A DNA stretch of 64,000 nt from Amphiura filiformis (taxonomy: Eukaryota > Echinodermata > Ophiuroidea > Amphilepidida > Amphiuridae): contig NC_092646.1 of the NCBI RefSeq assembly GCF_039555335.1, positions 23,872,893-23,936,892 of the forward strand. The letters run 5' to 3'. The notes beneath the pieces were generated by a model, which had not been told where the DNA came from, searched no databases, and saw only the letters and a program-made list of their open reading frames with translations. Position 1 is the stretch's first letter. The number at the start of each line of letters is the position of its first letter. Of the stretch, positions 2,216 to 44,520 are shown piece by piece. Position numbers and translations under genes: made by a program.

Positions 2216-2845
2216 ACCCATCAGCTTCATGATAACAGCTGTTATTGCCTTGATATGTGTCTTGACATAGAAAGAAACAAGTTGAACAACTAAGCAAGCA
2301 AATACAGATTCTGGTCTAGATTTTCTTCAAGTAATATTGGTATTGATGACATCAATGCGATATAAGCCTACTGGTAGGGTTGACGTTTTTGATGCTTATC
2401 TCCTTCAGCTAAAACTGAGCACAAGGATCCTTTAAATACATTGAAGGGTGGATTGCAGGGGATCACCCCGGTACTGTTGACTGTACTTCAAAAATACACT
2501 CATTAACTCTTGGTTCCAGAGTTCTCCTCGTCTGGTTACAAATGTAGCGTTGAGGAGTATCAAAGCAGAAGCAGAAGCAAACGCAGAACAATTCCAAAGC
2601 TATTGATCACACTATCTGTATATCAGTCTAAGAAAGTTCTGTGAAGTTCTTCCATGAGAAAAATAGAAGTATTCAGTTATATAATCTATCAACAATTTCC
2701 AGTTTAGTTATGTTAGTGTATCAAAAGTCAGGACTTAGAAACCATAATTATGTTAAAGATACCTTACATGGTATCAGAAGTTTTAAGTTAGTTGTAACGT
2801 GAAAAGAAGAAAAACTTGACATTTTTACTCAGGATTTTTACTTCA
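2216..2845. other. No gene seen
   Basis: AT-rich sequence with a short AGAAGC/GCAGAA repeat near 2560-2590. I see no coding signal or terminal repeats. Confidence 0.4.
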
Positions 2846-4143
2846 TCTTAATACTAATTACGGCGTGTCCGTCCGTCCGTCCCTCTGTCCGCTCGCTATC
2901 GCGTTCGCGTTCACGCGATGCACTATCGCGTGCTCGCGGTGCGCTATCCCATGTCTATGTGCTATCGCGGAGTATCAACGGGAGTGTGCGCGGAGTACAG
3001 TACGCGCATCGGAAAAGCAGTGTGACTAACAGGTGCATCTCATCGGACCAATAATTATAGGCCTTATTTTCAACACATATTTCAATACCGAACATGTGCA
3101 CACACCAAACACGTGCATCTCATCGGACCAATAATTATAGGCCTATTTCAGCAGAACATGACTATTTCCGGAAGGCATATGAACCGTTTTTGCGTTCACG
3201 TTTCTCGCGATTGATTTCATTACTTTAGTAACGCCCTACCCAGCAAACACAAAACGTTTTCGACATCATTCGCAAAAGGTTGTCAGAAAACGTTTAAATG
3301 TCGGGTTATATAAAAGGAATATTAAGAGTATAAAACGGTTTCATAACCTTAAAAAACATTTTTTTGATAATCTACTGCTCAGCAAACAAAAATGTTTTAC
3401 AGAAAACGTGTAGGGCCTAAATGTCGGGTTATATAAAGGGTATAAAAACGTTTTGATAACATTCCAAAAACATTCTTGAAAACTTGATACAAAACATTCT
3501 AAACAGAATCTTATTTTGGGAAAAAATTTTCCCCAAAATATTTGCAATAACGTTTTCAAACGTTTTTATGACCTTCATGTAACCCGACATTTAAATGTTA
3601 TTAAAATGTGGGTTTTTTTTCAACAAGAACATTTCTGTGTTTGCTGGGTTCAAATATTTTAACATAATGTTATTTAAGTATTGACAAAAATATTGTTGTA
3701 GTGTGTTTTCATACAAAACGTTTTAAACGTTATCATGACCTTTATATAACCCGACATTTTAATGTTATTAAAACGTTTTCACTTAAACCAAAAGCCAAAA
3801 TATAACTTATTTAAAACATTTTAAAAACGTTTTTGTGTTTGCTGGGTATATCCACGTCCAGATACTAATTTCGGTTTCTCTAAATGTGGTAACAGGGCAG
3901 GGCTTGGAAGAGGCGAATGATGGGTTTCCAGATTATGGGTAGGCCTACCGAACTACCGAAGTAAGCATCACACCTATAAAAACAAACAGAGTTGATTAAG
4001 TTGTGTAAAGTTGGGTCTTGATCATTGAGAGATGCATTTCATAGTAGTTTAAAAAGTCAGGGCAGGTATATGGGTAACGGGTTTGGGTAATTAGAAATAG
4101 GCCTATCACGAGAAGCGCCCGACCCGAGAACCGCGAAATCTAG
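2846..4143 (+). mobile_element. Non-autonomous canonical Helitron (TC...CTAG), copy 1
   Basis: It starts with TC (2846), then CTTAATACTAATTACGG and a GTCC-repeat tract, and ends GAACCGCGAAATCTAG at 4143. It lies between A (2845) and T (4144), the canonical Helitron A/T site without target duplication. A second copy with the same ends is at 11551-12078. The extra length is mostly the nested TIR element at 3239-3846. No Rep/helicase is encoded. A clear 3' hairpin was not found, which is atypical. Confidence 0.75.
3239..3846. mobile_element. TIR element (CCCAGCAAACAC ends) nested in the Helitron
   Basis: The left end CCCAGCAAACACAAAACG and right end GTTTTTGTGTTTGCTGGG are inverted, flanked by TA at 3237-3238 and 3847-3848. 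The 608-bp interior repeats AACGTTTT and AACCCGACATTTAA-type words in both orientations. It has no transposase. TA duplication suggests Tc1/mariner-type mobilisation, but the superfamily is uncertain. Confidence 0.75.
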
Positions 4144-5500
4144 TTAAGTATAATGGGCACGTTGCATCCAGTACATTCTTAAAGGTTCCAAAAGGGTCAA
4201 GTTCTAAAGTGTCCTCCTAGTACATAGGCCTATGGATAACCCTCGCACTTTAACATAAAATACTTCTTGAAAATTAACGAGTTCTTTTGAGAACCATCAC
4301 AAATCTAATGTGTTTAGGTTCTAAATGTCCAGCTCGTAACACTTTTTAAACAAATACACACTTTTTAAAGGAAGGCTCCGCCTATCACAACAATATGCCC
4401 TATGTAAGAAAAATAATTATCAAGCACGAATCACGTGGTTTTATCTAAAACAAACTCATGGCGACCATGTGATTCGGGCTTGATTATTATCTTTCTAACA
4501 ATTATAAGGCATGATATTATGATTGCCGGAGACTCATTAAAGTGCTTAGGAATAAAAGAAAATATTGTTTTCCACATTTTCACGAAACGATTGGTATTTT
4601 TGGCAACACCAACTCCTAAACATCACAAATAAAAAGCTTACATATCTAATTTCTAAAAGTTTAAACTGACTTTATCCAAGTAACCTTGAATTGTCGATGT
4701 GTGACACACATCGTCATCAGAAGAAGTCCTATGATGTTGTTACTTATCTAAACATGTCGCTTTAATAGCTAAACGTTAGCATTTAGAGTGTTGAAGACGC
4801 GGGGTGGGGTATAAGTGTTTAGGATGCGTTTTGATACAAATTGTATCAAAGTATGACACATGTAAAGTAACTTGAAAATCAAAAGGACGGAGCTGATTTT
4901 ATTTTGGATTTGCGATGTGTATGATAATATGTTTTATAATATGAAATCATAACAACTTACACTGAATTTCAAAATCTATTGAAATCGCATATCTATGTTC
5001 TAAAGACAGAATTTTTTTGAATAAGGACCTTAAAATATCCCAATTTTTGATCCTTTTTAACCCATATTTTTAATTATTCAAAAATTGTTTTGAATCTTTA
5101 GAACATAAATATGCAGTTTTTTTTGTGTGCGTTTTCCAGCTAAAAATAAAGGCGGCAGCCACTATGAAATTGGCTATACCATCTTGAAAAAAATAATGGA
5201 TTACCTCATATCCAAAATAATTGTTCTACAGCTAGAGCACTATAATATTTCTGGTTGATTTTATACCAATAATAGGTGAAAGAGGTGTCCTGTATAATGT
5301 ACATGTGTTTGTTGTTGTTGTTTTCAGGCAGTTGTTAAGGCAGCGGCCATTTTAAAAATGGCGGCACATCTTGAAAAAATAAACCAGAATTGTTTAGTCT
5401 TTATTGCTGTATTACTCGCATTATAAAGGTAAACAAAATGCTTTGTCAACTCTTTAATAACATTATGTTAAAATCGTGCATCTATTTTTCAAAAGTGTTT
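4144..5500. other. No gene seen
   Basis: AT-rich spacer with GGCGGC/GGCCATTTT patches near 5150-5360. The longest open frame (4435-4632) shows no recognisable domain. Confidence 0.4.
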
Positions 5501-10639: not shown

Positions 10640-10870
10640 TCGGCCGATATCCATCGCGTTCATCTCGAAGGTGTAATTTCGTAGAATTTTGCAAACAAGT
10701 TCTATTATGGAAGGTCGGATCACAATGCCTTGACGAATAACACAGATTTCACAGTTTTGCAGTACACGAAAACCGCAGTTTTCACAGTTTTGCACTACAC
10801 GAAAGACACGGTTTTTACAGTTTTGTAGCAAAACGGCTTCACGAAAGACCCAGTTCATACAGTTTTGCAG
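10640..10870. repeat. Degenerate CAGTTTTGCA minisatellite before TMEM26
   Basis: Four to five copies of CACAGTTTTGCAGTACACGA variants with a period of about 32 bp run directly into the first recognisable TMEM26 codons. No ATG occurs in the TMEM26 frame here, so the start of that gene is not visible. TTTTGCAG at 10863-10870 could be a splice acceptor. Confidence 0.65.
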
Positions 10871-10871
10871 T

Positions 10872-10979
10872 AAGACTTTCTTGCTGTGGAAAGCCATTCT
10901 TGCTCGTCTTCTGTTTACGATTCATGGGTTGGTAACAATATGGAAGGTGTCGGACGAGTACGACAACCAGTTGTTTCTT
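10872..10979 (+). CDS. TMEM26: TMEM26 homologue, N-terminal half of first recognisable exon
   Basis: Thirty-six codons read KTFLLWKAILARLLFTIHGL and then VTIWKVSDEYDNQLFL. From memory of vertebrate TMEM26, the R-L-L-F-x-x-H-x-L-V-x-x-W-[KR]-V pattern is its first membrane segment and following loop. The exon stops abruptly at a TT (10978-10979) where the Helitron array begins, with no GT donor there. Continuing the frame into the array meets a TAG near 11009. The reading resumes in frame at 25138. The 5' limit is set by a possible TTTTGCAG acceptor; no start codon is visible. TMEM26 is a multi-pass membrane protein of poorly known molecular function. Confidence 0.8.
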
Positions 10980-13677
10980 ATACCCTGCATGCAATATACC
11001 CGCATGCAATAGCATGCAGGGTATATTCCCATCCTGTGGTTTCTTCTCCTTCTCCTTTTTATCTATGCCTGTGCAACAGGGCATAGATATTCTGCTTATG
11101 CTCTTTAGTCTTCTCCTTATATATGCCTGTGTAGCAGGGCATATATATTCTCCTTATGCTCTTTAGTCTTCTCCTTCTTCCTTATCTATGCCTTTAGTCT
11201 TCTCCTTCTTCTTATCTATGCCTGTGCAACAGGGCATAGATATTCTGCTTATGCTCTTTAGTCTTCTCCTTTTCCTTCTCCTCCTTCTTCTCACGCTTCA
11301 TATTAACAGGACTATCTCCAAAACTACAAGGGCCCCATGGCTCATATTTGGCACACTTAATGGCCCTACCCATAGATGTGCCTTTTGCCCATTTTGGCCC
11401 CATAGGTCAAAGGTCACGGGCCCCAGGGGCCCAAATGTAAAAATACAAAGCATGCCGTTTCTCATCAAATAAAGCAGCCTCAGGGCCCTGAGTTGGTGCA
11501 CTGATAGCCCCAGGAGTACTCTATATTTACATGTATACATGAGCCCCATATCTTAATACTAATTACGGCGTGTCCGTCCGTCCGTCCGTCCTCTGTCCGT
11601 GCGCTATCGCGTTCGCGTCCGCGCGTGAACGCGGTACACTATCGCGTGCTCGCGGTGCGCTATCGCGGAGTATCAACGGGAGTGTGCGCGGAGTACAGTG
11701 CGCGCATCGGAAAAACATTACAGTGTGACTAACAGGTGCATCTCATCGGACCAATAGGCCTATTTTCAAGACAGGATTAACATAAAAATCATCAGTTATG
11801 GTATAACCCGTTTGGGTTGTATTTCGGGGTATTTTGGGGTCCTCCAATGTGGTAGCAGGACAGGGTTTGAAAGAGGCGAACGATGGGTTTTCAGATTATG
11901 GGTAGCCTACCGAAGTAAGCGTCACAGCTACAAAACATTAACAGAGTTGATTAATTATTGAGCGACGAATATCGTAGTAGTTTGAAAGGTTAGGACAAGT
12001 ATTATGGGTAACGGGTGTTGGGTAATTAGAGATAGGCCTATCACGAGAACCGCCCAACCCGAGAACCGCGAAATCTAGTGTCATATATTATGGGCCCCAG
12101 GGCCCCAAATGTTAAAAAAAGGGGCAACAGTTTGACAAGGTTAGCTGTGAAACTACAAGGGCACTAGGGCTCATATGTGGCACACGTATGGGCCCGAACT
12201 TGTAGATATGCATTTTACCAATTATGGCCCCAGATTTTTAAGGCTAGGGACCCAGAGGCCCAAATGTTAAAACAAAGGGCCGGCCGTTTCTCAGCAAATA
12301 AAGTAGCTACAGGGCTCAGATTTGGTACACAGATAGGTTTTCAGTGTAGGGTGATGGAACAGCCATTAAAGGGACACTCCGTTTTGGGATTAAAGGGGTA
12401 TTCAGATTTTTTGATTTTTTGTTGTTGATTTTTTTTTGTATGGAACATGTTTGTTGCATTATTTAAGGAGGAGCGCCCTCAAGCGTTTACACAGCAAATG
12501 CAATTAAAATGCTATTATTTGATTTTTAATTAATTAATTAATTAATTTTAATTTTTTGTTTTTGGTATACTGATAGCCCTTTTAGAATATGGGGTGTCAG
12601 TGGGTGTTAGGGTGATGGAACGGCCATTAAAGGGACACTCTGTTTTGGGATTAAAGGGGTATTCAGGTTTTTTGGTTTTTTTTTTTATTTTTTTTTGTAT
12701 GGAACGTGTTTGTTGCATTATTTAAGGAGGAGCGCCCTCAAGCGTTTACACAGCAAATGCAATTAAAGGGCTATTATTTGATTTTTAATTAATTAATTAA
12801 TTAATTTTAATTTTTGTTTTTGGTATACTGATAGCCCTTTTAGAATATGGGGTGTCAGTGGGTGTTAGGGTGAAGGAACAGCCATTAAAAAAATTTTTTT
12901 GATTTTTTTTGTATGGAACATGTTTGTTGCATTATTTAAGGAGGAGCGCCCTCAAGCGTTTACACAGCAAATGCAATTAAAGGGCTATTATTTGATTTTT
13001 AATTAATTAATTTTAATTTTTTTTGTTGGTATACTGATAGCCCTTTTAGAATATGGGGTGTCAGTGGGTGTTAGGGTGATGGAACGGCCATTAAAGGGAC
13101 ACTCTGTTTTGGGATTAAAGGGGTATTCAGATTTTTTTATTTTTTTATTTTTGTATTTTTTGTATGGAACGTGTTTGTTGCATTATTTAAGGAGGAGCGC
13201 CCTCAAGCGTTTACACAGCAAATGCAATTAAAGGGCTATTATTTGATTTTTAATTAATTACCGTAATTAATTAATTTTAATTTTTGTTTTTGGTATACTG
13301 ATAGCCCTTTTAGAATATGGGGTGTCAGTGGGTGTTAGGGTGATGGAACAGCCATTAAAGGGACACTCCGTTTTGGGATTAAAGGGGTATTCAGATTTTT
13401 AATTTTTAATTTTAATTTTTTTTTGTATGGAACATGTTTGTTGCATTATTTAAGGAGGAGCGCACTCAAGCGTTTACACAGCAAATGCAATTAAAGGGGT
13501 ATTATTTGATTTTTAATTAATTTATTTATTTCAATTTTTTTCGTTGGTATACTGATAGCCCTTTTAGAACATGGGGTGTCATGATGGATTAAGAGTGTCA
13601 TGGTGGGTTAAGGGGGTTAGGGTGGGAAACACAGGCATAGATATTCGTGTTTGGTCAAACACAACTGTGCCATCTAG
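10980..13677 (+). mobile_element. Array unit 1 (type B 5' end stacked on type A unit)
   Basis: It starts with a type B 5' end (ATACCCTGCATGC, about 10980-11030). Type A 5' ends (ATCTATGCCTGTG and variants) follow at 11061, about 11119, about 11184 (partial) and 11213. The body has GGGCCCC-rich modules, the nested Helitron 11551-12078, and five roughly 205-266-bp tandem repeats whose GGGTGATGGAAC landmark recurs near 12352, 12611, 12869, 13074 and 13340. The 3' end has CACAGGCATAGATA at 13630-13643, a palindrome at 13647-13662 and CTAG at 13674-13677. Confidence 0.8.
11551..12078 (+). mobile_element. Canonical Helitron copy 2 nested in array unit 1
   Basis: This 528-bp insertion starts TCTTAATACTAATTACGG and ends GCGAAATCTAG, between A (11550) and T (12079). 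Sister units at about 15598 and 17008 read CCCCATATGTCATATATT uninterrupted. Unit 1 reads CCCCATA, then the insertion, then TGTCATATATT, so it sits exactly between A and T with no target duplication. It is the same family as 2846-4143 but lacks the nested TIR element. Confidence 0.93.
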
Positions 13678-14510
13678 TTCTTCTTCTCCCTTCTTCTTCT
13701 CCTTCTCACGCTTCATATTAACAGGGCTAGCTCCAAAACTACAAGGGCCCCAGGGCTCATACTTGGCACACTTAATGGCCCCACCCCAAAGATGTGCCTT
13801 TTAGGGGTCAAGGTCATGTCAAGGTCATCTAAGTATATATTGTTGGATTGTCATCATATTTGGTGGATGTGACCACAATCGAATGCCGAAAAGGGTCAAG
13901 GTCATGTCAAGGTCATCGGAGTATAGTTTGTTGGATTATCATCAAACTTGGTGGATGAGATCACCATCGAGTGCCAATTATGGCCAAGGTCATGTCAAGG
14001 TCATCAGAGCAAATATTGTTGGATTGTCATCAAACTTGGTTCATGAGATCACCATCGAGTGCCGAAAATGGTCAAGGTCATATCAAGGTCATCCGAGTAT
14101 AGATTATTGGATTGGCACCAAACTTGGTGCATGGGATCACCATCGAATGCCAAAATGGTCAAGGTCATGTCAAGGTCATCAGAGTAAAGATTATTGGACT
14201 CCCACCAAACTTGGTGCATGGGATCATAATCGAATGCCAAAAATGGTCAAGGTCATGTCAAGGTCATCAGAGTAAAGATTGTTAGATTGTAACCAAACTT
14301 GGTGAATGAGATCACCGTCGACCGCCAATATTGGTCAAGGTCATGTCAAGGTCATCCGAGTATAGATTGTTGGATTGTCACCAAACTCGGTGGATGATAT
14401 CACCATCGAGTGCCAATAATGGTCAAGGTCATGTCAAGATCATTGGGGGTTAGGGTGGGAATCACAGGCATATATATTCGTGTTTGCTCAAACACAACAG
14501 TGCCATCTAG
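13678..14510 (+). mobile_element. Array unit 2 (type A, 5' truncated) with 87-bp DR5-bearing repeats
   Basis: The unit starts directly at TTCTTCTTCTCCC, lacking the type A 5' stem. After the common GGGCCCC module, about eight tandem copies of an 87-90-bp repeat run from 13806 to 14450. Most carry AGGTCATGTCAAGGTCA, two nuclear-receptor half-sites 5 nt apart. It ends with a type A palindrome and CTAG (14507-14510). The long open frame 13883-14275 is the repeat translated. Confidence 0.85.
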
Positions 14511-15252
14511 TTCTCCTTCTTCTTCTCCTCCTTCTCACGCTTCATATTGACAGGGCCAGCTCCAAAACTACAAGGGCCCCAGGGCTCATACTTGGCACAC
14601 TTAATGGCCCCACCCCAAAGATGTGCCATTTAGGGGTCAAGGTCATGTCAAGGTCGTCTATGTATATATTGCTGGATTGTCATCATATTTGGTGGATGTG
14701 ATCACAATCGAATGCCGAAAGGGGTCAAGGTCATGTCAAGGTCATCCGAGTATAGTTTGTTGGATTATCATCAAACTTGGTGGATGAGCTCACCATCGAG
14801 TGCCAATTATTGTCAAGGTCATGTCAAGGTCATCAGAACAAAAAATGTTGGATTGTCATCAAACTTGGTTGATGAGATCACCATCGAGTGCCGAAAATGG
14901 TCAAGGTCATATCAAGGTCATCCGAGTATAGATTATTGAATTGCCACCAAACTTGGTGCATGGGATCACCATCAAATGACAAAAATGGTCAAGGTCATGT
15001 CAAGGTCATCAGAGTAAAGATTATTGGATTGCCACCAAACTTGGTGCATGGGATCATAATCGAATGCCAAAAATGTGTAAGGTCGTGTCAAGGTCATCAG
15101 AGTAAAGATTGTTGGATTGTAACCAAACTTGGTGGATGATATCACCATCGAATGCCAATAATGGTCAAGGTCATGTCAAGGTCATTGGGGGTTAGGGTGG
15201 GAATCACAGGCATATATATTCGTGTTTGCTCAAACACAACAGTGCCATCTAG
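14511..15252 (+). mobile_element. Array unit 3 (type A, 5' truncated), near-duplicate of unit 2
   Basis: It starts TTCTCCTTCTTCTTCTCC, again without the 5' stem. It has the same module order as unit 2, with about seven copies of the 87-bp repeat (landmarks near 14638, 14725, 14813, 14899, 14986, 15076 and 15163). Its interior differs from unit 2 by scattered substitutions and one fewer repeat, pointing to unit duplication. Confidence 0.85.
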
Positions 15253-16723
15253 TTATCTATGCCTGTGGAACAGGGCATAGATATTCTGCTTATGCTCTTT
15301 AGTCTTCTCCTTTTCCTTCTTCTTCTTCTCCTTCTCCTTCTGACCCTTCACATTAACAGGGCTATCTCCAAAACTACATGGACCCCAGGGCTCATATTTG
15401 GCACACTTAATGGCCCTACCCCATAGATGTGCCTTTTCCTATTTTGGCCCCATAGGTAAAATGTCACGGGCCCCAGGGGCCCAAATGTAAAAAATACAAA
15501 GCATGCCGTTTCTCATCAAATAAAGCAGCCTCAGGGCCCTGAGTTGGTGCACTGATAGCCCCAGGAGTACTCTATATTTACATGTATACATGAGCCCCAT
15601 ATGTCATATATTATGGGCCCCAGGGCCCCAAATGTTAAAAAAAAGGGCAACAGTTTGACAAGGTTAGCTGTGAAACTACAAGGGCACTAGGGCTCATATG
15701 TGGCACACGTATGGGCCTGAACTTGTAGATATGCATTTTACCAATTATGGCCCCAGATTTTTAAGGCTAGGGGCCCAGAGGCCCAAATGTTAAAACAAAG
15801 GGCCGGCCGTTTCTCAGCAACTAAAGTAGCTACAGGGCTCAGATTTGGTACACAGATAGGTTTTCAGTATAGGGTGATGGAACAGCCATTAAAGGGACAC
15901 TCCGTTTTGGGATTAAAGGGGTATTCAGATTTTTTGATTTTTTTTTTGATTTTTTTTTGTATGGAACATGTTTGTTGCATTATTTAAGGAGGAGCGCCCT
16001 CAAGCGTTTACACAGCAAATGCAATTAAAGGGCTATTATTTGATTTTTAATTAATTAATTAATTTTAATTTTTTTTTTTTTTTTTTGGTATACTGATAGC
16101 CCTTTTAGAATATGGGGTGTCAGTGGGTGTTAGGGTGATGGAACAGCCATTAAAGGGACACTCCGTTTTGGGATTAAAGGGTATTCAGATTTTTGATTTT
16201 TTTTTTTTTTTGATTTTTTTTGTATGGAACGTGTTTGTTGCATTATTTAAGGAGGAGCGCCCTCAAGCGTTTACACAGCAAATGCAATTAAAGGGCTATT
16301 ATCTGATTTTTAATTAATTAATTAATTTTAATTTTTTTTTTGGTATACTGATAGCCCTTTCAGAATATGGGGTGTCAGTGGGTGTTAGGGTGATGGAACA
16401 GCCATTAAAGGACACTCCGTTTTGGGATTAAAGGGGTATTCAGATTTTTGATTTTTTTTTGATTTTTTTTTTGTATGGAACATGTTTGTTGCATTATTTA
16501 AGGAGGAGCGCCCTCGAGCGTTTACACAGCAAATGCAATTAAAGGGGTATTATTTGATTTTTAATTATTTATTTATTTCAATTTTTTTCGTTGGTATACT
16601 GATAGCCCTTTTAGAATATGGGGTGTCATGATGGATTAAGAGTGTCATGGTGGGTTAAGGGGTTAGGGTGGGAAACACAGGCATAGATATTCGTGTTTGG
16701 TCAAACACAACTGTGCCATCTAG
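15253..16723 (+). mobile_element. Array unit 4 (type A, complete ends)
   Basis: It starts TTATCTATGCCTGTGGAACA and ends with palindrome GTGTTTGGTCAAACAC and CTAG (16720-16723). It contains the uninterrupted CCCCATATGTCATATATT site and three copies of the roughly 257-bp repeat (GGGTGATGGAAC near 15875, 16132 and 16389). Confidence 0.85.
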
Positions 16724-17871
16724 TTTTCCTTCTTCTTCTTCTCCTTCTCCTTCTGACCCTTCACATTAACAGGGCTATCTCCAAAACTACAAGGACCCCA
16801 GGGCTCATATTTGGCACACTTAATGGCCCTACCCCATAGATGTGCCTTTTGCCTATTTTGGCCCCATAGGTAAAGGTCACGGGCCCCAGGGGCCCAAATG
16901 TAAAAATACAAAGCATGCCGTTTCTCATCAAATAAAGCAGCCTCAGGGCCCTGAGTTGGTGCACTGATAGCCCCAGGAGTACTCTATATTTACATGTATA
17001 CATGAGCCCCATATGTCATATATTATGGGCCCCAGGGCCCCAAATGTTAAAAAAGGGGCAACAGTTTGACAAGGTTAGCTGTGAAACTACAAGGGCACTA
17101 GGGCTCATATGTGGCACACGTATGGGCCTGAACTTGTAGATATGCATTTTACCAATTATGGCCCCAGATTTTTAAGGCTAGGGGCCCAGAGGCCCAAATG
17201 TTAAAATAAAGGGCCGGCCGTTTCTCAGCAAATAAAGTAGCTACAGGGCTCAGATTTGGTACACAGATAGGTTTTCAGTATAGGGTGATGGAATAGCCAT
17301 TAAAGGGACACTCCGTTTTGGGATTAAAGGGGTATTCAGATTTTTGATTTTTTTTTTTTGATTTTTTTGTATGGAACATGTTTGTTGCATTATTTAAGGA
17401 GGAGCGCCCTCAAGCGTTTACACAGCAAATGCAATTAAAGGGCTATTATTTGATTTTTAATTAATTAATTAATTTTAATTTTTTTTTTTTGGTATACTGA
17501 TAGCCCTTTTAGAATATGGGGTGTCAGTGGGTGTTAGGGTGATGGAACAGCCATTAAAGGACACTCCGTTTTGGGATTAAAGGGGTATTCAGATTTTTGA
17601 TTTTTTTTTTTGATTTTTTTTGTATGGAACGTGTTTGTTGCATTATTTAAGGAGGAGCGCCCTCGAGCGTTTACACAGCAAATGCAATTAAAGGGGTATT
17701 ATTTGATTTTTAATTATTTATTTATTTCAATTTTTTCGTTGGTATACTGATAGCCCTTTTAGAATATGGGGTGTCATGATGGATTAAGAGTGTCATGGTG
17801 GGTTAAGGGGTTAGGGTGGGAAACACAGGCATAGATATTCGTGTTTGGTCAAACACAACTGTGCCATCTAG
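16724..17871 (+). mobile_element. Array unit 5 (type A, 5' truncated)
   Basis: It starts TTTTCCTTCTTCTTCTTCTC without the stem. The body matches unit 4 but has only two roughly 255-bp repeats (near 17284 and 17538). CTAG is at 17868-17871. Confidence 0.85.
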
Positions 17872-18900
17872 TTATCTATGCCTGTGGAACAGGGCATAGA
17901 TATTCTCCTTATGCTCTTTAGTCTTCTCCGTTTCCTTCTTCTCCTTTTCCTCCTCCTCACGCTTCATATTGACAGGGCTATCTCCAAAACTACAAGGGCC
18001 CCAGGGCTCATATTTGGCACACTTATTGGCCCTACCCCGTAGATGTGCCTTTTGCCCATTTTGGCCCCATAGGTCAAAGGTCACGGGCCCCAGGGGCCCA
18101 AATGTAAAATACAAAGCATGCCATTTCTCATCAAATAAAGCAGTCTCAGGGCCCTGAGTTGGTGCACTGATAGCCCCAGGGGTACTCTATATTTACAGGT
18201 ATACATGAGCCCCATATGTCATATATTATGGGCCCCAGGGCCCCAAATGTTAAAATAAGGGGCAACAGGTTGACAAGGTTAGCTATAAAACTACAAAAGC
18301 ACTAGGGCTCATATGTGGCACACGTATGGGTCTGAACTAGTAGATACGCATTTTGCCCATTTTGGCCCCAGAATTGTAAGGCTAGGGGCCCCAGAGGCCC
18401 AAATGTTAAAATATTTGGCCGGCCGTTTTTCAGCAAATAAAGTAGCTACAGGGCTCAGATTTGGTACACTAATAGATCTTTAGCATTATATTGTTGTATG
18501 AATATAAGAGCCCCATATGGCACATAATATGGGCCCCAGGGCCCCAATTGTTAAAACAAAGGGCCGGCTGTTTCTCAGCAAGTAAAGTAGCTACAGGGCT
18601 CAGATTTGGTACAATAATAGATCTTTAGCATTATATTGTTATATGAATATAAGAGCCCCATATGGCACATAATATGGGGCCCAGGGCCCCAATAGTTAAA
18701 ACATAGGGCAGACCGTTACTCTGTTACTCAGTAAATAAAACAGCTACAATGCTCTAGGTTGGTACACAGATAGCCGTTTTTAGCATTAAACATATTACAG
18801 GGTGTCAGGGTGAGTTTAGAGTGTCGTGGTGGGTGGGGGTTAGGGTGGGAATCACAGGCATAGATATTCGTGTTTGATCAAACACAACAGTGCCATCTAG
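17872..18900 (+). mobile_element. Array unit 6 (type A, complete ends)
   Basis: It starts TTATCTATGCCTGTGGAACA. The interior carries GGGCCCCAGGGCCCC modules about 130-170 bp apart and a DR1 motif at 18071-18083. The 3' palindrome GTGTTTGATCAAACAC is perfect. CTAG is at 18897-18900. Confidence 0.85.
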
Positions 18901-20654
18901 TTATACCCGCATGCGAAGCATGGACGGGTATCTTCCCATCCTGTGGTTTCTTCTCCTTTTCCTCCTTCTCCATCAAACACAACATTCTGTCAAGGCTAGC
19001 GCTAAAACTACAAAGGCCCTGGAGCCCATATGTGGTACACGTATGGGCCCTACCCCTCGTAGAAGTGCCTTTTGCCCATCTTGGCCCCAGAGGTCAAAGG
19101 TCACGGGCCCCAGGGGCCCAAATGTGAAAATACAAAGCACGCCATTTCTCATCAAATGAAGCAGCCTCAGGGCCCTGAGTTGGTACACTGATAACCCTAG
19201 GGGTACTCTATATTTACAAATATACAAGAGCCCCATATGTTATATATTATGGGCCCCAGGGGCCCAAATGTTAAAATATGGTGCAACAGATTGACAAGCC
19301 TAGCTCTAATAGTACAAGATCGCTAGGGCTCATATGTGGCATATGTATGGGCCCTAAGTTGTAGATGTGCCTTTTGCCCATTCTGGCCCCAGATGTACAA
19401 GGCTGGGAGCCCCAGGGGCCAAAATGTTAAAACAAAGGGCCGGCCGTTTCTCAGCAAATAAAGTAGCTACAGGGTTCAGATTTGGTACACAGATAGGTCT
19501 TTAGTATTATATTGTCATATGTATATATAACCCCATATGTCACATAATATGGGCCCCAGGGCCCCAAACGCTAAAACATAAGGCCGGCCGTTACTCAGTA
19601 AATAAAGCAGCTACAATGCCCAGCTTGAGTCTACTGATAGCACTTGAGAATCATACTTCAACATATGTACATGAGCCCCATAAGTCATATATATTGGGCC
19701 CCAGGGCCCCAAATGTTAAAACAAAGGCCGGCCGTTTCTCATCATATAAAGCAGCTTTATGGCTCAGAGTTTGTACACAGATTGCACCTGAGAATTACAT
19801 TGTTATATGTACATATGAGCCCCATATATCACATAATATTGGCCCCAGGGCCCCAAACGCTAAAACAGAGGGCCGGCCGTTACTCAGTAAATAAAGTAGC
19901 TACAGTGGCCAGCTTGAGTCTACTGATAGCTAGAAAATTATACTTCAACATAATTATGTACATGGGCCTCATAAGTCAAATATTATGGGCTCCAGGGCCC
20001 CAAATGTTAAAAAAAGGGCGGGTCGTTTCTCATCAAAGAAAGCAGCTTCCGGGCTCAGAATTTGTACACAGATAGCACCTGAGAATTATATTGTTACTAA
20101 CACCCACACACCCATCAACCCCACACACGTAGGACTAAACAGACAGATCGTATTATATCATAATTGGAAATACCAGCGTGAAGCGTTAAGGCTGTTCAGT
20201 TAAATTACATACCCATTGGCTGTTCCATTTAATTTACATACTCCCTCTGAAATGGCCCCAAAAAAGGCTGTTCCGTTTAATTTACATACTCCCTCTGAAA
20301 TGGCTGTTCCATTTAATTTACATACTCCCTCTGGAATAGTTTCCCTGAATCATATTGCATAGCCTCACTGTGAGTAAGAGAGACTGACAACAGCAACCTA
20401 TGGAGAGTAAGAGAGACGACTCCCCTGGGAGGGACTTTTTACAATTTCTTTATTTTAAGTGCTACGACAGTGCAACCTACATTCAATTAAAGCTTGTGAC
20501 TTGGACTTTCACTTTTTACACATTTTCTGCCCAAGTTGGGCGACTTTTTACAATTTCTTTATTTTAAGTCCTCAGCAAATAAGGACTGTAAGTTTGGGTA
20601 CACCGATAACATGCGGGTATAGCCGTATTTGTGTACAAATATATAGCCTTCTAG
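18901..20654 (+). mobile_element. Array unit 7 (type B, complete ends)
   Basis: Its 5' end has ATACCCGCATG at 18903-18913; the inverted partner CATGCGGGTAT lies shortly before the terminal CTAG (20651-20654). The interior has tandem modules marked by GGGCCGGCCGTTTCTCAGCA and then GCTGTTCCATTTAATTTACA repeats. DR1 motif at 19091-19103. Confidence 0.85.
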
Positions 20655-22880
20655 TTCTCCTCCTTCTCCTCCTTCTCCATCAAACACATCATTCTGTCAA
20701 GGCTAGCGCTAAAACTACAAAGGCCCTGGGGCCCATATGTGGTACACTTATAGACCCTACCCTGTAGAAGTGCCTTTTGCCCATCTTGGCCCCAGAGGTC
20801 AAAGGTCACGGGCCCCAGGGGCCCAAATGTGAAAAATACAAATCACGTCGTTTCTCATCAAATGAAGCAGCCTCAGGGCCATAAGTTGGTACACTGATAG
20901 TCCCAAGGGTACTCTATAAATACAAGTATACATGAGCCCCATATGTTATATATTATGGGCCCCAGGGCCCCAAATGTTAAAAAATATGGGGCAACAGATT
21001 GACAAGCCTAGCTCTAAAGCTACAAGGGCACTAGGGCTCATATGTTGCACATGTATAAGCCCTAAATTGTAAATGTGCCTTTTGCCCATTTTGGCCCCAG
21101 ATGTACAAGGCTAGAGGCCCCAGGGGCCCAAATGTTAAAACAAAGGGCCGGCCGTTTCTCAGCAAATAAAGTAGCTACAGGGCTCAGATTTGGTACACAG
21201 ATAGGTTTTCAGTATTATATTGTCATATGTATATATGTACCCCATATGTCACATAATATGGGCCCCTGGGCCCCAAACGCTAAAACATAGGGCCGGTCGT
21301 TACTCTGTAAATAAAGCAGCTTTAGGGCTCAGAGTTAGTACACAGATTGCACCTGAAAATCACATTGTTATATGTACATGTGAGCCCCATATATTACATT
21401 TTATGGGCCCCAGGGCCCCAAACTCTAAAACATAGGGCCGGCCGTTACTCTGTAAATAAAGCAGCTTTAGGGCTCAGAGTTAGTACACAGATTGCACCTG
21501 AAAATCACATTGTTATATGTACATGTGAGCCCCATATATTACATTATATGGGCCCCAGGGCCCCAAAACGCTAAAACATAGGGCCGGCCGTTACTCAGTA
21601 AATAAAGCAGCTACAGTGCCCAGCTTGAGTCTACTGATAGCACTAGAGAATTAAACTTCAACATATGTCCTGGGCCTCATAAGTCAAATATTATGGGCCC
21701 CATGGCCCCAAATGTTAAAACAAAGGGCCGGCCGTTTCTCATCAAATAAAGCAGCTTCCGGGCTCAGAATTTGTACACAGTAGCACCTGAGAATTATATT
21801 GTTATTAACACCCACATATCCCCCCACCCTACACATGTAGGACTAAACAGACATATCCGTGTTATAATTATTAATATAAATTTAATAATTGGAAATACCA
21901 GCGTGAAGCGTTAAGGCTGTTCCAGTTAAATTACATACCCATTGGCTGTTCTATTTAATTTACGTACTCCCTCTGAAATGGTCCCAAAATAGGCTGTTCC
22001 GTTTAATTTACATACTCCCTCTAAAATGGCTGTTCCATTTAATTTACATACTCTCTCTGGAATAGTTTTCCCCTAATCACATTGCATAGCCTCATTGTGA
22101 ATAAGAGAGACTGACAACAGCAATCTATGGAGAGACAACTCCCCTGGCAGGGGACTTTTTACAAGTTCTTTATTTTAAGTACTACGAGAGTGCAACCTGC
22201 ATTAAATTAAAGCTTGTGACTTGGACTTTCAATTTTACACTTTTTTACGACTTTTTACAATTTCTATATTTTAAGTCCTCAGCAATTTGTACACAGATAG
22301 CACCTGAGAATTATATTGTTACTAACACCCACGCACGCACCCATCCACCCCACACACGTAGGACTAAACAGACAGACCGTATTATATCATAATTGGAAAT
22401 ACCAGCGTGAAGCGTTAAGGCTGTTCCAGTTAAATTACATACCCATTGGCTGTTCCATTTAATTTACATACTCCCTCTGAAATGGCCCCAAAAAAGGCTG
22501 TTCCGTTTAATTTACATACTCCCTCTGAAATGACTGTTCCGTTTAATTTACATACTCCCTCTGGAATAGTTTCCCTAATCGTATTGTATAGCCTCGCTGT
22601 GAGTAAGAGAGACTGACAACAGCAACCTATGGAGAGTAAGAGAGACGACTCCCTGGGAGGGGACTTTTACTATTTCTTTATTTTAAGTGCTACGACAGTG
22701 CAACCTACATTCAATTAAAGCTTGTGACTTGGACTTTCACTTTTACACATTTTCTGCCCAATTGGGCGACTTTTTACAATTTCTTTATTTTAAGTCCTCA
22801 GCAAATAAGGACTGTAAGTTTGGGTACACCGATAACATGCGGGTATAGCCGTATTTGTGTACAAATATATAGCCTTCTAG
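20655..22880 (+). mobile_element. Array unit 8 (type B, 5' truncated)
   Basis: It starts TTCTCCTCCTTCTCC, lacking the ATACCCGCATG stem, and has a full type B 3' end with CTAG at 22877-22880. It has the same two internal modules as unit 7, the GCTGTTCC part being partly duplicated (about 21900-22100 and 22410-22570). DR1 motif at 20796-20808. Confidence 0.85.
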
Positions 22881-25137
22881 TTATACCTGCATGCAGCGCA
22901 TGCAGGGTATCTTCCCATCCTGTGGTTTCTTCTCCTCCTCCTCCTCCTCCTTCTTCTCCTATCAAACACATCATTCTGTCAAGGCTAGCGCTAAAACTAC
23001 AAGGGCCCCAGGGCCCATATGTGGTACACTTATGGGCCCTACCCCGTAGATGTGCCTTTTGTCCATCTCGGCCCCAGAGGTCAAAGGTCACGGGCCCCAG
23101 GGGCCCAAATTTAAAAACACAAACCATGCCGATTCTCATCAGATGAAGCAGCCTCAGGGCCATAAGTTGGTACACTGATAGTCCCAAGGGTACTCTATAA
23201 ACACAAGTATACATGAGCCCCATATGTTATATATTATGGGCCCCAGGGCCCCAAATGTTAAAAATATGGGGCAACAGATTGACAAGCCTAGCTCTAAAGC
23301 TACAAGGGCACTAGGGCTCATATGTTGCACATGTATAAGCCCTAAATTGTAGATGTGCCTTTTGCCCATTTTGGCCCCAGATGTACAAGGCTAGAGGCCC
23401 CAGGGGCCCAAAGGTTAAAACAAAGGGCCGGCCGTTTCTCAGCAAATAAACTAGCTACATGGTTCGGATTTAGTACACAGATAGGTTTAGTATGATATTG
23501 TCATATGTACATATGTACCCCATATGTCACATAATATGGGCCCTGGGCCCCAAACGCTAAAACATAGGGCCGGTCGTTACTCTGTAAATAAAGCAGCTTT
23601 AGGGCTCAGAGTTAGTACATTTGTACACAGATTGCACCTGAAAATCACATTGTTATATGTACATGTGAGCCCCATATATTACACTATATGGGCCCCAGGG
23701 CCCCAAACGCTAAAACGTAGGGCCGGCCGTTACTCTGTAAATAAAGCAGCTTTAGGGCTCAGAGTTAGTACACAGATTGCACCTGAAAATCACATTGTTA
23801 TATGTACATGTGAGCCCCATACATTACATTATATGGGCCCCAGGGCCCCAAACGCTAAAACATAGGGCCGGCCGTTACTCAGTAAATAAAGCAGCTACAG
23901 TGCCTAGCTTGAGTCTACTGATAGCACTAGAGAATTAAACTTCAACATATGTCCATGGGCCTCATAAGTCAAATATTATGGGCCTCATGGCCCCAAATGT
24001 TAAAACAAAGGGCCGGCCGTTTCTCATCAAATAAAGCAGCTTCCGGGCTCAGAATTTGTACACAGTAGCACCTGAGAATTATATTGTTATTAACACCCAC
24101 ATACCCCTCCCCACCCTACACACACGTAGGACTAAACAGACATATCCGTATTATAATTATTAATATAATAATTGGAAATACCAGCGTGAAGCGTTAAGGC
24201 TGTTCCAGTTAAATTACATACCCATTGGCTGTTCTATTTAATTTACATACTCCCTCTGAAATGGTCCCAAAATAGGCTGTTCCGTTTAATTTACATACTC
24301 CCTCTAAAATGGCTGGTCCATTCAATTTACATACTCCCTCTGGAATAGTTTTCCCCTAATCACATTGCATAGCCTCACTGTGAATAAGAGAGACTGACAA
24401 CAGCAATCTATGGAGAGACAACTCCCCTGGCAGGGGACTTTACAAGTTCTTTATTTTAAGTGCTACGAGAGTGCAACCTGCATTAAATTAAAGCTTGTGA
24501 CTTGGACTTTCAATTTTACACATTTTCCACCCAATTGGGCGACTTTTTACAATGTCTATATTTTAAGTCCTCGGCAATTTGTACACAGATAGCACCTGAG
24601 AATTATATTGTTACTAACACCCACGCACGCACCCATCCACCCCACACACGTAGGACTAAACAGACAGATCGTATTATATCATAATTGGAAATACCAGCGT
24701 GAAGCGTTAAGGCTGTTCAGTTAAATTACATACCCATTGGCTGTTCCATTTAATTTACATACTCCCTCTGAAATGGCCCCCAAAAAGGCTGTTCCGTTTA
24801 ATTTACATACTCCCTCTGAAATGGCTGTTCCATTTAATTTACATACTACCTGAGTAAGAGAGACTGACAACAGCAACCTATGGAGAGTAAGAGAGACGAC
24901 TCCCCTGGGAGGGACTTTTACAATTTCTTTATTTTAAGTGCTACGACAGTGCAACCTACATTCAATTAAAGCTTGTGACTTGGACTTTCACTTTTTACAC
25001 ATTTTCTGCCCAATTGGGAGACTTTTTACAATTTCTTTATTTTTAAAAGTCCTCAGCAAATAAGGACTGTAAGTTTGGGTACACCGATAACATGCGGGTA
25101 TAGCCGTATTTGTGTACAAATATATAGCCTTCTAGTT
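22881..25137 (+). mobile_element. Array unit 9 (type B, complete ends), abuts TMEM26 exon
   Basis: It starts TTATACCTGCATGCAGCGCA and ends CATGCGGGTAT (25091-25101), near-palindrome (25108-25121), CTAG (25132-25135), TT. The next base, 25138, is the resumed TMEM26 reading frame. DR1 motif at 23078-23090. The body closely follows unit 8. Confidence 0.87.
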
Positions 25138-25217
25138 CTTCTTTGTCTTCCCCTTGGATTACTTGTGATTGAAATGGTAGTGACTACATTTTACACCAAA
25201 ACTGGAGAATGGAAATG
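25138..25217 (+). CDS. TMEM26: TMEM26 homologue, C-terminal half of first recognisable exon
   Basis: Twenty-six codons plus TG encode LLCLPLGLLVIEMVVTTFYT then KTGEWK and the first two bases of a Trp codon. A GTAAGA donor follows at 25218. The hydrophobic segment, its Glu and the K-W ending match the second membrane segment of vertebrate TMEM26. Joined directly to 10872-10979 at the shared TT, the frame continues and appears to align to vertebrate TMEM26 without a gap. The Trp codon is completed by the first base of the exon at 27501. Confidence 0.85.
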
Positions 25218-27500: not shown

Positions 27501-27666
27501 GTTTTGCCCAAGCGTCGTTCTGTATCTGGCTAGTGTAATTCCTGGTATATGGTTGTTAAACATGAGGATCTACCAAGACCGTGAAACCTTCAGGATAACA
27601 CACGGCCGAAATACATGTGAATCAACGATGATGTTTGATGAGACCACTTTAAAGGAAATTCAAGGT
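27501..27666 (+). CDS. TMEM26: TMEM26 homologue, internal exon
   Basis: The exon follows acceptor TCCATTGCAG and ends before donor GTAAGT (27667). It has 166 bases: one base completing a Trp codon, then 55 codons beginning FCPSVVLYLASVIPGIWLLN. This matches the F-[SC]-P-x-x-x-L-Y-L-x-S-[IV]-[VI]-P-x-[LI]-W-L-L segment of vertebrate TMEM26. The remainder (to ETTLKEIQG) is a polar loop. The phases at both ends agree with the neighbouring exons and there are no stops. Confidence 0.88.
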
Positions 27667-29705: not shown

Positions 29706-30338
29706 GTCTCCATCCCTCTTGTTCTACCATCAGACCAATGGGTCGCCGGATTACAACAAACCATGTTTGCCATCCTCATATTTGGTAGATGGCTCCTCCC
29801 AAAAGGTCACCTATCACGTGACCAGTTATCCCAACTTCTTCTCACTTATCTGGGTATCGCTGCAGACAGCCTGGAATTCTCCCTTGAAACGCTCGACATT
29901 GCTGAAGTCTACTGTAACCTGAGTCTCATTATCGTTGTTCTGACCATCTGGACATGGAGCGTATCGCAGTTTACTATGGTGCAGTGGTCTGTCGCAGGTA
30001 GCGAGCCACCTCGCGGTGATATTGAAGCTGGGTCTCGTACTAAGAAACCGAGTCGTGCTAACGGATGCTGTGAAAGCGAACTTTGGTCGTTAATCCTTAC
30101 CGTCTTGTTACAAGACGGGCCGTTTTTTACAATGCGATTATACGTCATGTTGAAATTCCAAATTATAAACCAATTGATGCTTTTCTTTGTCATCAAAAAT
30201 GCACTGGTTATTGGAATTCAATTCTATAGAGGCCTCATCTTATGTTCCGGGCAAATTACCGCAACTGGTACGGAATCTGATACATCTACAATGTCTGCCA
30301 TACGCAGCGCCTGGTGGATGCTTGGACAGGCAGTCTAA
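29706..30338 (+). CDS. TMEM26: TMEM26 homologue, final coding exon
   Basis: Acceptor TTATTTTCCAG precedes VSIPLVLPSDQWVAGLQQTM; the exon encodes 210 residues to TAA at 30336-30338, in phase 0 with the previous exon. Family hallmarks are GRWLLPKGHLSRDQLSQLLL, AADSLEF..ETL, IWTWS..QF, LLQDGPFFTMRL and INQLMLFF..KN.LV...Q.YR. About four hydrophobic segments are evident (near exon residues 20-35, 70-90, 125-150 and 155-175). The tail after the last segment is about 30-35 residues, shorter than the vertebrate tail as I recall it. The frame is intact with no stops, so selection acted until recently even though the first exon is interrupted. Confidence 0.93.
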   Translation, partial: VSIPLVLPSDQWVAGLQQTMFAILIFGRWLLPKGHLSRDQLSQLLLTYLGIAADSLEFSLETLDIAEVYCNLSLIIVVLTIWTWSVSQFTMVQWSVAGSEPPRGDIEAGSRTKKPSRANGCCESELWSLILTVLLQDGPFFTMRLYVMLKFQIINQLMLFFVIKNALVIGIQFYRGLILCSGQITATGTESDTSTMSAIRSAWWMLGQAV

Positions 30339-30720: not shown

Positions 30721-32366
30721 CTCTAAGTTGGCTCCCAACTTATGTCATTGCAGTGATGGGCGTTTGGCCTGAGGACCTGCTCTAAGTTGGCTCCCAACTT
30801 ATGTCACGGGCGTTTGGCCTGGGGACCTGCTCTAAGTTGGCTCCCAACTTATGTCATTGCAGTGATGGGCGTTTGGCCTGAGGACCTGCTCTAAGTTGGC
30901 TCCCAACTTATGTCATTGCAGTGATGGGCGTTTGGCCTGAGAACCTGCTCTAGGTTGGCTCCCAACTTATGTCATTGCAGTGATGGGCGTTTGGCCTGAG
31001 GACCTGCTCTAAGTTGGCTCCCAACTTATGTCATTGCAGTGATGGGCGTTTGGCCTGAGGACCTGCTCTAAGTTGGCTCCCAAATTATGTCATTGCAGTG
31101 ATGGGCGTTTGGCCTGAGGACCTGCTCTAAGTTGGCTCCCAAATTATGTCATTGCAGTGATGGGCGTTTGGCCTGAGGACCTGCTCTAAGTTGGCTCCCA
31201 ACTTATGTCATTGCAGTGATGGGCGTTTGGCCTGAGGACCTGCTCTAGGTTGGCTCCCAACTTATGTCATTGCAGTGATGGGCGTTTGGCCTGAGGACCT
31301 GCTCTAAGTTGGCTCCCAACTTATGTCATTGCAGTGATGGGCGTTTGGCCTGAGGACCTGCTCTAAGTTGGCTCCCAACTTATGTCATTGCAGTGATGGG
31401 CGTTTGGCCTGAGGACCTGCTCTAAGTTGGCTCCCAACTTATGTCATTGCAGTGATGGGCGTTTGGCCTGAGAACCTGCTCTAGGTTGGCTCCCAACTTA
31501 TGTCATTGCAGTGATGGGCGTTTGGCCTGAGGACCTGCTCTAAGTTGGCTCCCAACTTATGTCATTGCAGTGATGGGCGTTTGGCCTGAGGACCTGCTCT
31601 AAGTTGGCTCCCAACTTATGTCATTGCAGTGATGGACGTTTGGCCTGAGGACCTGCTCTAAGTTGGCTCCCAACTTATGTCATTGCAGTGATGGGCGTTT
31701 GGCCTGAGGACCTGCTCTAAGTTGGCTCCCAAATTATGTCATTGCAGTGATGGGCGTTTGGCCTGAGGACCTGCTCTAAGTTGGCTCCCAAATTATGTCA
31801 TTGCAGTGATGGGCGTTTGGCCTGAGGACCTGCTCTAAGTTGGCTCCCAACTTATGCCATTGCAGTGATGGGCGTTTGGCCTGAGGACCTGCTCTAAGTT
31901 GGCTCCCAACTTATGTCATTGCAGTGATGGGCGTTTGGCCTGAGGACATGCTCTAAAGTTGGCTCCCAACTTATGTCATTGCAGTGATGGGCGTTTGGCC
32001 TGAGGACCTGCTCTAAGTTGGCTCCCAACTTATGTCATTGCAGTGATGGGCGTTTGGCCTGAGGACCTGCTCTAAGTTGGCTCCCAAATTATGTCATTGC
32101 AGTGATGGGCGTTTGGCCTGAGGACCTGCTCTAAGTTGGCTCCCAACTTATGCCATTGCAGTGATGGGCGTTTGGCCTGAGGACCTGCTCTAAGTTGGCT
32201 CCCAACTTATGTCATTGCAGTGATGGGCGTTTGGCCTGAGGACCTGCTCTAAGTTGGCTCCCAACTTATGTCATTGCAGTGATGGGCGTTTGGCCTGAGG
32301 ACATGCTCTAAAGTTGGCTCCCAACTTATGTCATTGCAGTGATGGGCGTTTGGCCTGAGGACCTGC
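30720..32366. repeat. 59-bp minisatellite, about 28 copies
   Basis: The unit holds CTCCCAACTTATGTCATTGC, AGTGATGGGCGTTTGGCCTG and AGGACCTGCTCTAAGTTGG, with very low divergence (single substitutions such as AAATTATG for AACTTATG and GCCATTGC for GTCATTGC). One copy near 30800 lacks CATTGCAGTGATGG. Variants recur in the same order, suggesting block duplication. It starts about 380 bp past the TMEM26 stop. Confidence 0.97.
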
Positions 32367-43967: not shown

Positions 43968-44520
43968 TTAAATAATGAAGAAGGAGGTGGCCTATATGCT
44001 TCACCCTGGCAGGGCGTAAGACAATGCGAAACACAAATTAATATATGCTAGGATCGGAAATAAACGATGCAAGCCCGAGAAATTATAATTTAAATGGCGT
44101 AATTGGGGCTCGAGCAAACTGGCATATGAAAATATTGAGAGAGAAAAAATCAGGACTCAGCGGGGATTGAACCCCGGTCGCTGGATTACCGGTCCAGAGC
44201 TTTACCACTGTACAACCTGAGTTCACAGTCGGTACTTTTCGGGCAATCTCAACTTAAGTCCCCATTATAACTCTCTCATTGTGTCTCAAGCGGCCAATTA
44301 TATATTAAATAATGAAGAAGGAGGTGGCCTATATGCTTCACCCTGGCAGGGCGTAAGACAATGCGAAACACAAATTAATATATGCGAGGATCGGAAATAA
44401 ACGATGCAAGCCCGAGAAATTATAATTTAAATGGCGTGATTGGGGCTCGAGCAAACTGGCATATGAAAATATTGAGAGAGAAAAAATCAGGACTCAGCGG
44501 GGATTGAACCCCGGTCGCTA
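43968..44520. repeat. 340-bp tandem repeat with tRNA-like segment, second copy truncated
   Basis: AATAATGAAGAAGGAGGTGG starts copies at about 43970 and 44310, and the following 210 bp are nearly identical. Copy 1 continues through a tRNA-like segment (44150-44220). Copy 2 stops inside that segment at about 44519, where the 33-bp satellite begins. Confidence 0.85.
44150..44220 (-). tRNA. tRNA-like sequence (SINE-type or tRNA pseudogene)
   Basis: The minus strand gives a 71-nt cloverleaf-like unit: TCAGG...CCTGA acceptor ends (5 good pairs), a D-arm with GTGGTAAAGC (A-box-like), an anticodon arm CTGGA-CCGGTAA-TCCAG, and a T-arm CGGGGTTCAATCCCCG with B-box GGTTCAATCC. The anticodon loop has C instead of the universal T33, and two acceptor pairs are broken. 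It is therefore more likely a tRNA-derived repeat than a working tRNA. If read as a tRNA, the anticodon would be GGT. Confidence 0.55.

Follow-up and report, generated by a model that had tools for sequence, protein, structure and literature searches.

HINE and DINE-1 elements are non-autonomous Helentrons described as having subterminal inverted repeats (subTIRs) at both ends, a 3' palindrome and TT or T-rich insertion targets (PMC4067079). For elements of Fusarium and Metarhizium self-insertion into 5' ends has been proposed (PMC5148889). Here we describe a stretch of 64,000 nucleotides from the ophiuroid Amphiura filiformis (contig NC_092646.1, forward-strand positions 23,872,893 to 23,936,892), referred to as the window, in which a coding exon of a TMEM26 gene is split by an insert that looks like a pile of about nine HINE-like elements. 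All calls of frames, junctions and elements were made on this one window.

The insert shares with HINE/DINE-1 the palindromic subTIRs near both ends, the 3' palindrome, the TT or T-rich target, the internal tandem repeats and the lack of any sign of target duplication (PMC4067079). It differs in that the 3' subTIR lies 35-37 nucleotides from the end, as we cut the elements, versus 38-60 in the mite families of that paper, in the constant CTAG before the TT, in the stacking within a coding exon and in that no autonomous partner was seen in the window. The proto-Helentron of Phytophthora infestans (PMC4067079) likewise has a 5' TT and a 3' CTAG, and the units here can be cut as TTATACC...CTAG; yet its insertion site lies between A and T and it encodes a Rep/Helicase, whereas the units here have C, T or G ahead of the TT and showed no coding capacity. 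The Helitron2-type FoHeli of Fusarium and a three-copy case in Metarhizium resemble the insert in that one element enters the 5' end of another, leaving multiple 5' termini before one 3' end (PMC5148889), but the stack described here is deeper, retains orphan 3' pieces in nested order and sits in an animal gene. Cg_HINE of the Pacific oyster is similar in being made of HINEs with satellite-like central repeats (PMC7492417) and differs from our locus, where some pieces lack a 5' end. Introners also place a mobile element inside a coding exon (PMC9860276), but here the left edge offers no donor and the insert carries no ready-made intron. A literature search found no paper combining Helitron insertion, exon, loss of function and premature stop, which does not imply absence from print.

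The split TMEM26 exon

The TMEM26 coding exon is interrupted between positions 10979 and 25138, and the junction of its halves restores the frame. The original prediction let the frame end at the TT at 10978-10979 and restart after the TT at 25136-25137, and translation confirmed both points. The left half (10872..10979, plus strand) covers residues 1-36 of the joined frame and was recognized by translation, Pfam and relatives, its 5' boundary being uncertain. The right half (25138..25217, plus strand) was delimited by translation and is followed by the donor GTAAGA at 25218 with a score of 9.0; the splice weights used throughout are consensus frequencies and are not echinoderm-trained. When the halves are joined and one TT is retained, they read KTFLLWKAILARLLFTIHGLVTIWKVSDEYDNQLFL|LLCLPLGLLVIEMVVTTFYTKTGEWKW in phase. 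Exon 2 (27501..27666) and exon 3 (29706..30338, with the stop codon), both on the plus strand, are intact, with open frames and well-scoring splice sites. The earlier statement that the other exons are undamaged thus stands for these two; beyond them the protein start was not located, as the left half has no in-frame ATG after a stop at 10731.

The joined frame together with exons 2 and 3 comprises 328 amino acids open to the stop codon. It matched the Pfam family Tmem26 (PF09772) with 275 bits over profile positions 2-285 of 285, i.e. at full length. As relatives we used the best 120 of 157 database proteins with E <= 0.001. Residues 22-60 were spanned by 105 of these, 100 of them gapless in that region, and a single spanning relative (P0039) had a gap inside residues 33-40. 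Thus the two halves are contiguous in the relatives, P0002 of A. filiformis included, which supports the in-phase, gapless join that had been claimed. Reading on from the left half into the insert yields LIPCMQYTRMQ followed by a stop, which is the eleventh codon of the element.

Relatives and paralogues

One database relative was identical to the joined frame, over 280 amino acids: P0001, a 280-amino-acid 'transmembrane protein 26-like' of A. filiformis, which begins at a Met in the right half of the split exon. Two further A. filiformis proteins are P0002 (73% identical over 89% of the query) and P0021 (50% over 68%); from the equal length of their contigs (60,072,021 bases) we infer that all three are located on one chromosome. 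Besides P0001, no relative among the best 120 of 157 was more than 73% identical. Therefore, an uninterrupted allele was not represented among these proteins, which counts only weakly in either direction. It had also been suggested that an intact copy elsewhere would turn this locus into a pseudogene copy. In the paralogue P0002 the exon is contiguous; with 73% identity, however, P0002 represents an old duplicate, and the locus is not a mere copy of it. Identity to P0002 amounted to 22/30 residues in the left half, 26/27 in the right half, 39/55 in exon 2 and 123/181 in exon 3. By these counts the left half is no more diverged from P0002 than exons 2 and 3.

Anatomy of the insert

The insert (10980..25137, plus strand) was delimited by ends, hairpins and subTIRs and has nine HINE-like 3' ends that all point the same way. 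They end in CTAGTT at 13679, 14512, 15254, 16725, 17873, 18902, 20656, 22882 and 25137. A perfect 7-bp hairpin stem was present within 60 nucleotides ahead of CTAGTT at all nine element ends, compared with 1 of 16 other CTAGTT of the window on either strand; two opposite-strand CTAGTT inside the array had no hairpin. Two types of termini occurred, type A with ATCTATGCCTGTG at the 5' end and the 3' hairpin GTGTTTGNTCAAACAC, and type B with ATACCCGCATGC and TATTTGTGTACAAATA, respectively.

In HINEs both ends carry subterminal repeats, inverted and about 12-15 bp long. Here subTIRs paired at both ends over 10-13 matching positions in eight of nine elements, and over only 7 in the composite A3+U2 (see below). 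In those eight the distance of 35-37 nucleotides from the 3' end, with the TT counted as part of the element, was just below 38-60. The HINE 3' palindrome of 5-10 bp, 8-35 bp from the end, has its counterpart in the 7-bp stems before all nine ends. Insertion at TT or T-rich sites without target duplication also agrees, the host and the inner sites having kept one TT, with the empty state of the host deduced from the protein relatives. Folding of B-type 5' ends was far better than that of shuffled sequences in all three cases tested (z -4.0 to -5.3). No transposase was found: all six stop-to-stop open reading frames of at least 120 amino acids in the array were without a Pfam match above cut-off, with two sub-threshold matches. 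Canonical Helitrons start with a 5' TC and insert between A and T, whereas the elements here start with ATAC, ATCT or ATAT after TT. The canonical 3' CTRR with a palindrome about 11 bp from the end is present, in that CTAG fits CTRR and hairpins precede it, but this does not settle the class. Taken together, the insert looks like about nine non-autonomous Helentron-like elements (HINEs) and not like canonical Helitrons.

Nesting of the elements

The original prediction had read the insert as a tandem Helitron array. A mobile-element insert in a coding exon is indeed present, but instead of such an array we see HINE-like elements, some nested and some adjacent, with two types of terminus and all on the plus strand. 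At the left end 5' pieces follow each other in the series B0, A1, A2 and A3, and then comes the two-ended A4; the 3' pieces without a 5' end (U2, U3, U5 and U8) close in the order of a nested stack.

B0 would be the outermost element. Its 5' piece (10980..11060) carries the subTIR ATACCCGCATGC, a palindromic hairpin and a TTC tract, and its rest would be U8 (20657..22882), which has a B-type 3' end but lacks a 5' end. Among the orphan 3' pieces only U8 is of B-type, and it closes last, as an outermost B0 requires. Inside the TTC tract of B0 lies the 5' piece of A1 (11061..11118), probably continued by U5 (16726..17873). When A1 and U5 were joined over one TT, their start aligned to the uninterrupted U4 with identity at 136/138 bases and no gaps. 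The 5' piece of A2 (11119..11183) sits inside A1 and has the variant subTIR ATATATGCCTGTG, which it shares with its presumed rest U3 (14513..15254), where the 3' subTIR shows the ATATAT variant; U2 carries the variant too. A possible 5' piece of A3 (11184..11213) inside A2 lacks the hairpin, may be a local duplication and is the weakest assignment. Its rest would be U2 (13680..14512), whose 3' subTIR is the ATATAT variant that the A3 piece does not show.

The other elements have both ends. Matched 13-nucleotide subTIRs flank the innermost A4 (11214..13679), U4 (15255..16725), which lies beside the A2 block within A1, and U6 (17874..18902) within B0. U7 (18903..20656), also within B0, is of B-type with matched 11-nucleotide subTIRs, and U9 (22883..25137), of B-type as well and located beside B0 at the right edge of the exon, has subTIRs with one mismatch in 11. 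The last 29 nucleotides are identical in U7, U8 and U9. U4, U6, U7 and U9 start directly after the CTAGTT of another element. Judged by these matches, the nested pairing is supported for three of the four interrupted elements.

Two other arrangements were dropped. One comprised nine tandem units with 5'-truncated inner copies; the pieces at 10980-11213, however, match the orphan 3' pieces. The other took U4 and U6 as truncated copies, but each has its own matched subTIRs.

The first ~16 nucleotides of B0 (10980-10995) are duplicated to give two 5' starts, which recalls the multiple 5' termini of FoHeli (PMC5148889). Outside the insert, 2845-3148 and 3883-4144 are 77-83% similar to parts of 11550-12079 inside A4. 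Position 4140 reads CTAGTTAA where 12075 reads CTAGTGTC, and a related element or relic may lie there and within A4.

Origin of the stack

We propose that a first HINE entered an early coding exon of TMEM26 at a TT within the T-rich TTTCTTCTTCTTTGTCTTCCCC. Further targets would then have been provided by the TTC-rich 5' tract of this element and by the TT that remains at each 3' end, and other HINEs could have inserted there one after another to form a Russian-doll stack in one orientation. The five interrupted targets contain 7-10 TT and 0-1 AA per 40 bases. If TT is the target, a single orientation would arise because the T-rich or TTC tract offers TT on one strand only. Growth in place, as opposed to arrival as a block, is our judgement and not a measurement.

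The alternatives considered here and below address different questions, namely the origin of the block and the effect on the gene, and their likelihoods do not sum to one. Construction of the block elsewhere and its arrival in a single transposition from 10980 to 25137 would require the exon to be hit just once; the block is indeed flanked by a single outer 5' end and a single 3' end, with one TT kept, and the distance of 10.7-11.3% between U7 and both B0+U8 and U9 would predate the insertion. Yet the transposition would have read through eight internal 3' ends, eight consecutive bypasses are not to be expected, and the proposal for nested FoHeli is a start at the leftmost 5' end with a stop at the first 3' end (PMC5148889), so that we consider this origin unlikely. 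Rolling-circle tandem amplification with 5'-truncated inner units is very doubtful. The head-to-tail units joined at CTAGTT would fit, tandem Helitron insertions have been reported in several organisms (PMC5148889), and adjacent pairs, for instance B0 and U9, might have arisen in that way, but the two terminus types, the 79-90% identity in 21 of the 32 unit pairs for which a local match was listed and the 5' pieces at the left end that match the orphan 3' pieces all speak against it. An assembly artefact, i.e. a misjoin of the array into the exon, might be suspected, as the genome of the species was published as a nanopore assembly, with haplotypes removed, of a very heterozygous animal (PMC11310086). 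It is nevertheless extremely improbable, because both junctions are element ends at TT and the exon resumes to the base, which is not expected of a misjoin.

Age of the insertion

For two siblings in one stack the divergence should be at least the summed times since each insertion, which sets a ceiling on the age provided that no gene conversion occurred. B0+U8 differed from U9 at 71/2227 positions (3.2%), A1+U5 from U4 at 17/1205 (1.4%), and U7 from B0+U8 and U9 by 10.7-11.3%. The larger distances between units mostly appear to reflect subfamilies and not insertion age. The option of reading all inter-unit divergence as age was rejected, since two terminus types and several subfamilies are mixed in it. 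The k-mer heterozygosity of A. filiformis, the genome of which was published as a nanopore assembly with haplotypes removed, is 3.22% (PMC11310086). The closest siblings, at 1.4% and 3.2%, do not exceed this value; therefore, under the assumptions of the age ceiling, the first insertion probably does not predate the ordinary differences between alleles of this animal. A tension had been noted between diverged units and intact host exons. While local identity is indeed 79-90% in 21 of 32 pairs, the tension mostly dissolves with the closest siblings.

The probability that an unconstrained frame stays intact was 0.0002 and 0.0001 over the U7/U8 and U7/U9 ages (0.06 and 0.05 with substitutions alone). 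At the scale of the heterozygosity it was 0.07 with an assumed indel ratio and 0.43 with substitutions alone. The elements are rich in simple repeats, so that their indel rate probably overestimates that of an exon.

Effect on the gene

Disruption of this TMEM26 paralogue, with a presumed loss of function, is the most likely consequence of the insert, and it is probably young and perhaps still segregating. We favor disruption because of the stop at the eleventh codon of the element and because P0001 covers only the part from the right-half Met. The GTs nearest to the left edge, at 10970 and 10973, score below 80% and 87% of the GTs in the window. No GT-AG pair removes the insert exactly; the three exact frame-restoring excisions would be TT-AG, TA-GT or AT-TT introns. 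The reported absence of a GT donor at the left edge accordingly holds. As to the options listed in the original prediction, a recent and possibly haplotype-specific disruption is preferred, and exact splicing via GT-AG is excluded.

It is quite unlikely that the gene is alive, with the 14-kb stack spliced out by a cryptic or non-canonical junction or replacing the 5' end of the gene; if true, a new intron or first exon of a coding gene would have been created by self-targeting Helentrons in the time that a polymorphism lasts. Cryptic splicing would create a new intron and allow a near-complete protein to be made. It has 40-42 in-frame, stop-free GT-AG pairs at its disposal, e.g. with the donor AAG/GTGTCG at 10947, and the CTAG end sets an AG exactly at the right edge. 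Yet none of these pairs removes the insert exactly, the best in-frame pair scored 10.3 versus 18.2 for each of the two introns of the gene itself, 13% of 400 random window segments put in place of the insert did as well, and the public protein model P0001 does not join the halves. We regard this rescue as very improbable. Alternatively, the 280-amino-acid form could be a real product, transcribed from within or after the array, i.e. a TMEM26 that lacks the first membrane segment and part of the second one. P0001 is exactly that form, exons 2 and 3 are intact, and the right half is identical to P0002 at 26 of 27 residues. However, a gene model would be expected to begin at the first Met on offer regardless of whether the product is real, and decay is not more advanced in the left half than in exons 2 and 3, so that a genuine product of this kind appears distinctly improbable. 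Rescue by splicing and a functional truncated protein are thus possible but unsupported, and disruption remains the preferred effect.

The protein start

Downstream of the in-frame stop at 10731, no in-frame ATG precedes the exon. A weak acceptor AG ends at 10870 with a score of 5.3, which 12% of the AGs in the window reach. In six aligned relatives the start Met is 7 residues ahead of a conserved Lys, in three others 8 or 9. None of these aligned places is a Met in the window copy. P0002 likewise has no Met there; it has one four residues ahead of the Lys and another further up. An upstream exon was sought with the N-terminus of P0002, but the exon itself was the only clear match, which does not help the proposed reading. 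Either an upstream exon is present in both the window copy and P0002, or the window copy had lost its start.

In the upstream flank a 33-bp tandem repeat at 10733-10870 abuts the exon and forms an imperfect 11-residue repeat in its frame. In-frame ATGs are located at 10707 and 10725, just ahead of the in-frame TGA at 10731.

Discussion

We assign a probability of about 0.66 to the reading that a HINE hit the exon, that serial self-targeted stacking followed and that the result is a young disruption of a TMEM26 paralogue, perhaps still segregating. The locus would then be a legible record of how Helentrons may pile up, where each TTC-rich tract is a target and one hit seeds a stack of the same orientation. 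The divergence of units within such a stack is not simply insertion age, and matched sibling pairs can bound the age. As the stack lies in a coding exon with a known uninterrupted state, its order and timing are testable in population samples, and the species is used for regeneration studies.

Several observations weigh against this reading. With respect to the stack, the A3-U2 pairing is weak. The 58-nucleotide piece of A1 matches the start of A4 at 58/58 and that of U4 at 57/58 positions; it could be a local duplication of the start of A4, and Tandem Repeats Finder (TRF) lists such repeats there. If terminus type alone is considered, chance would by our count put the four orphan pieces into nested order in about 1 of 12 cases. 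The pyrimidine content of the four inner targets is 0.85-1.00 per side, that of the exon 0.60 on the left and 0.85 on the right. Two 3' ends that were folded did not perform significantly better than shuffles (z -1.1 and -1.6). With respect to the age, A4 is 2.8% distant from U4 but 7.0% from A1+U5, unlike a clean clock, and the distances are noisy and depend on alignments of satellite-rich elements, with a ceiling that assumes no gene conversion. Over the U8/U9 age an unconstrained frame would stay intact with a probability of 0.46 for substitutions only and 0.021 with indels at the rate of the elements; the corresponding values for the U4/U5 age are 0.69 and 0.037. These probabilities leave room for continued constraint.

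The remaining points of this kind concern the gene. Loss of function and polymorphism are both deduced from a single sequence. In the tree the window copy groups with P0002 (100/100) on a branch of 0.59 versus 0.27, with a long-branch warning. Of the 85 exon 3 columns without variation in 11 other relatives, 16 deviate in the window copy, 16 in P0002 and 8 in P0021; in exon 2 the window copy deviates at 1/15 of such columns and P0002 at none. The longer branch and the deviating columns may reflect a relaxed constraint that predates the insertion.

Other features of the window

At 55039-57958 two minus-strand frames match reverse transcriptase (RVT_1) and endonuclease, which probably represent one retrotransposon of the non-long-terminal-repeat type with a frame break. 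ARAGORN located a tRNA-Thr (GGT) on the minus strand at 44152-44224, which barely passes the Rfam tRNA model with 29.9 bits against a cut-off of 29. In addition, the window contains a 33-bp tandem array of about 114 copies at 44517-48307 and a 59-bp tandem array of about 26 copies with 98% matches at 30808-32366.

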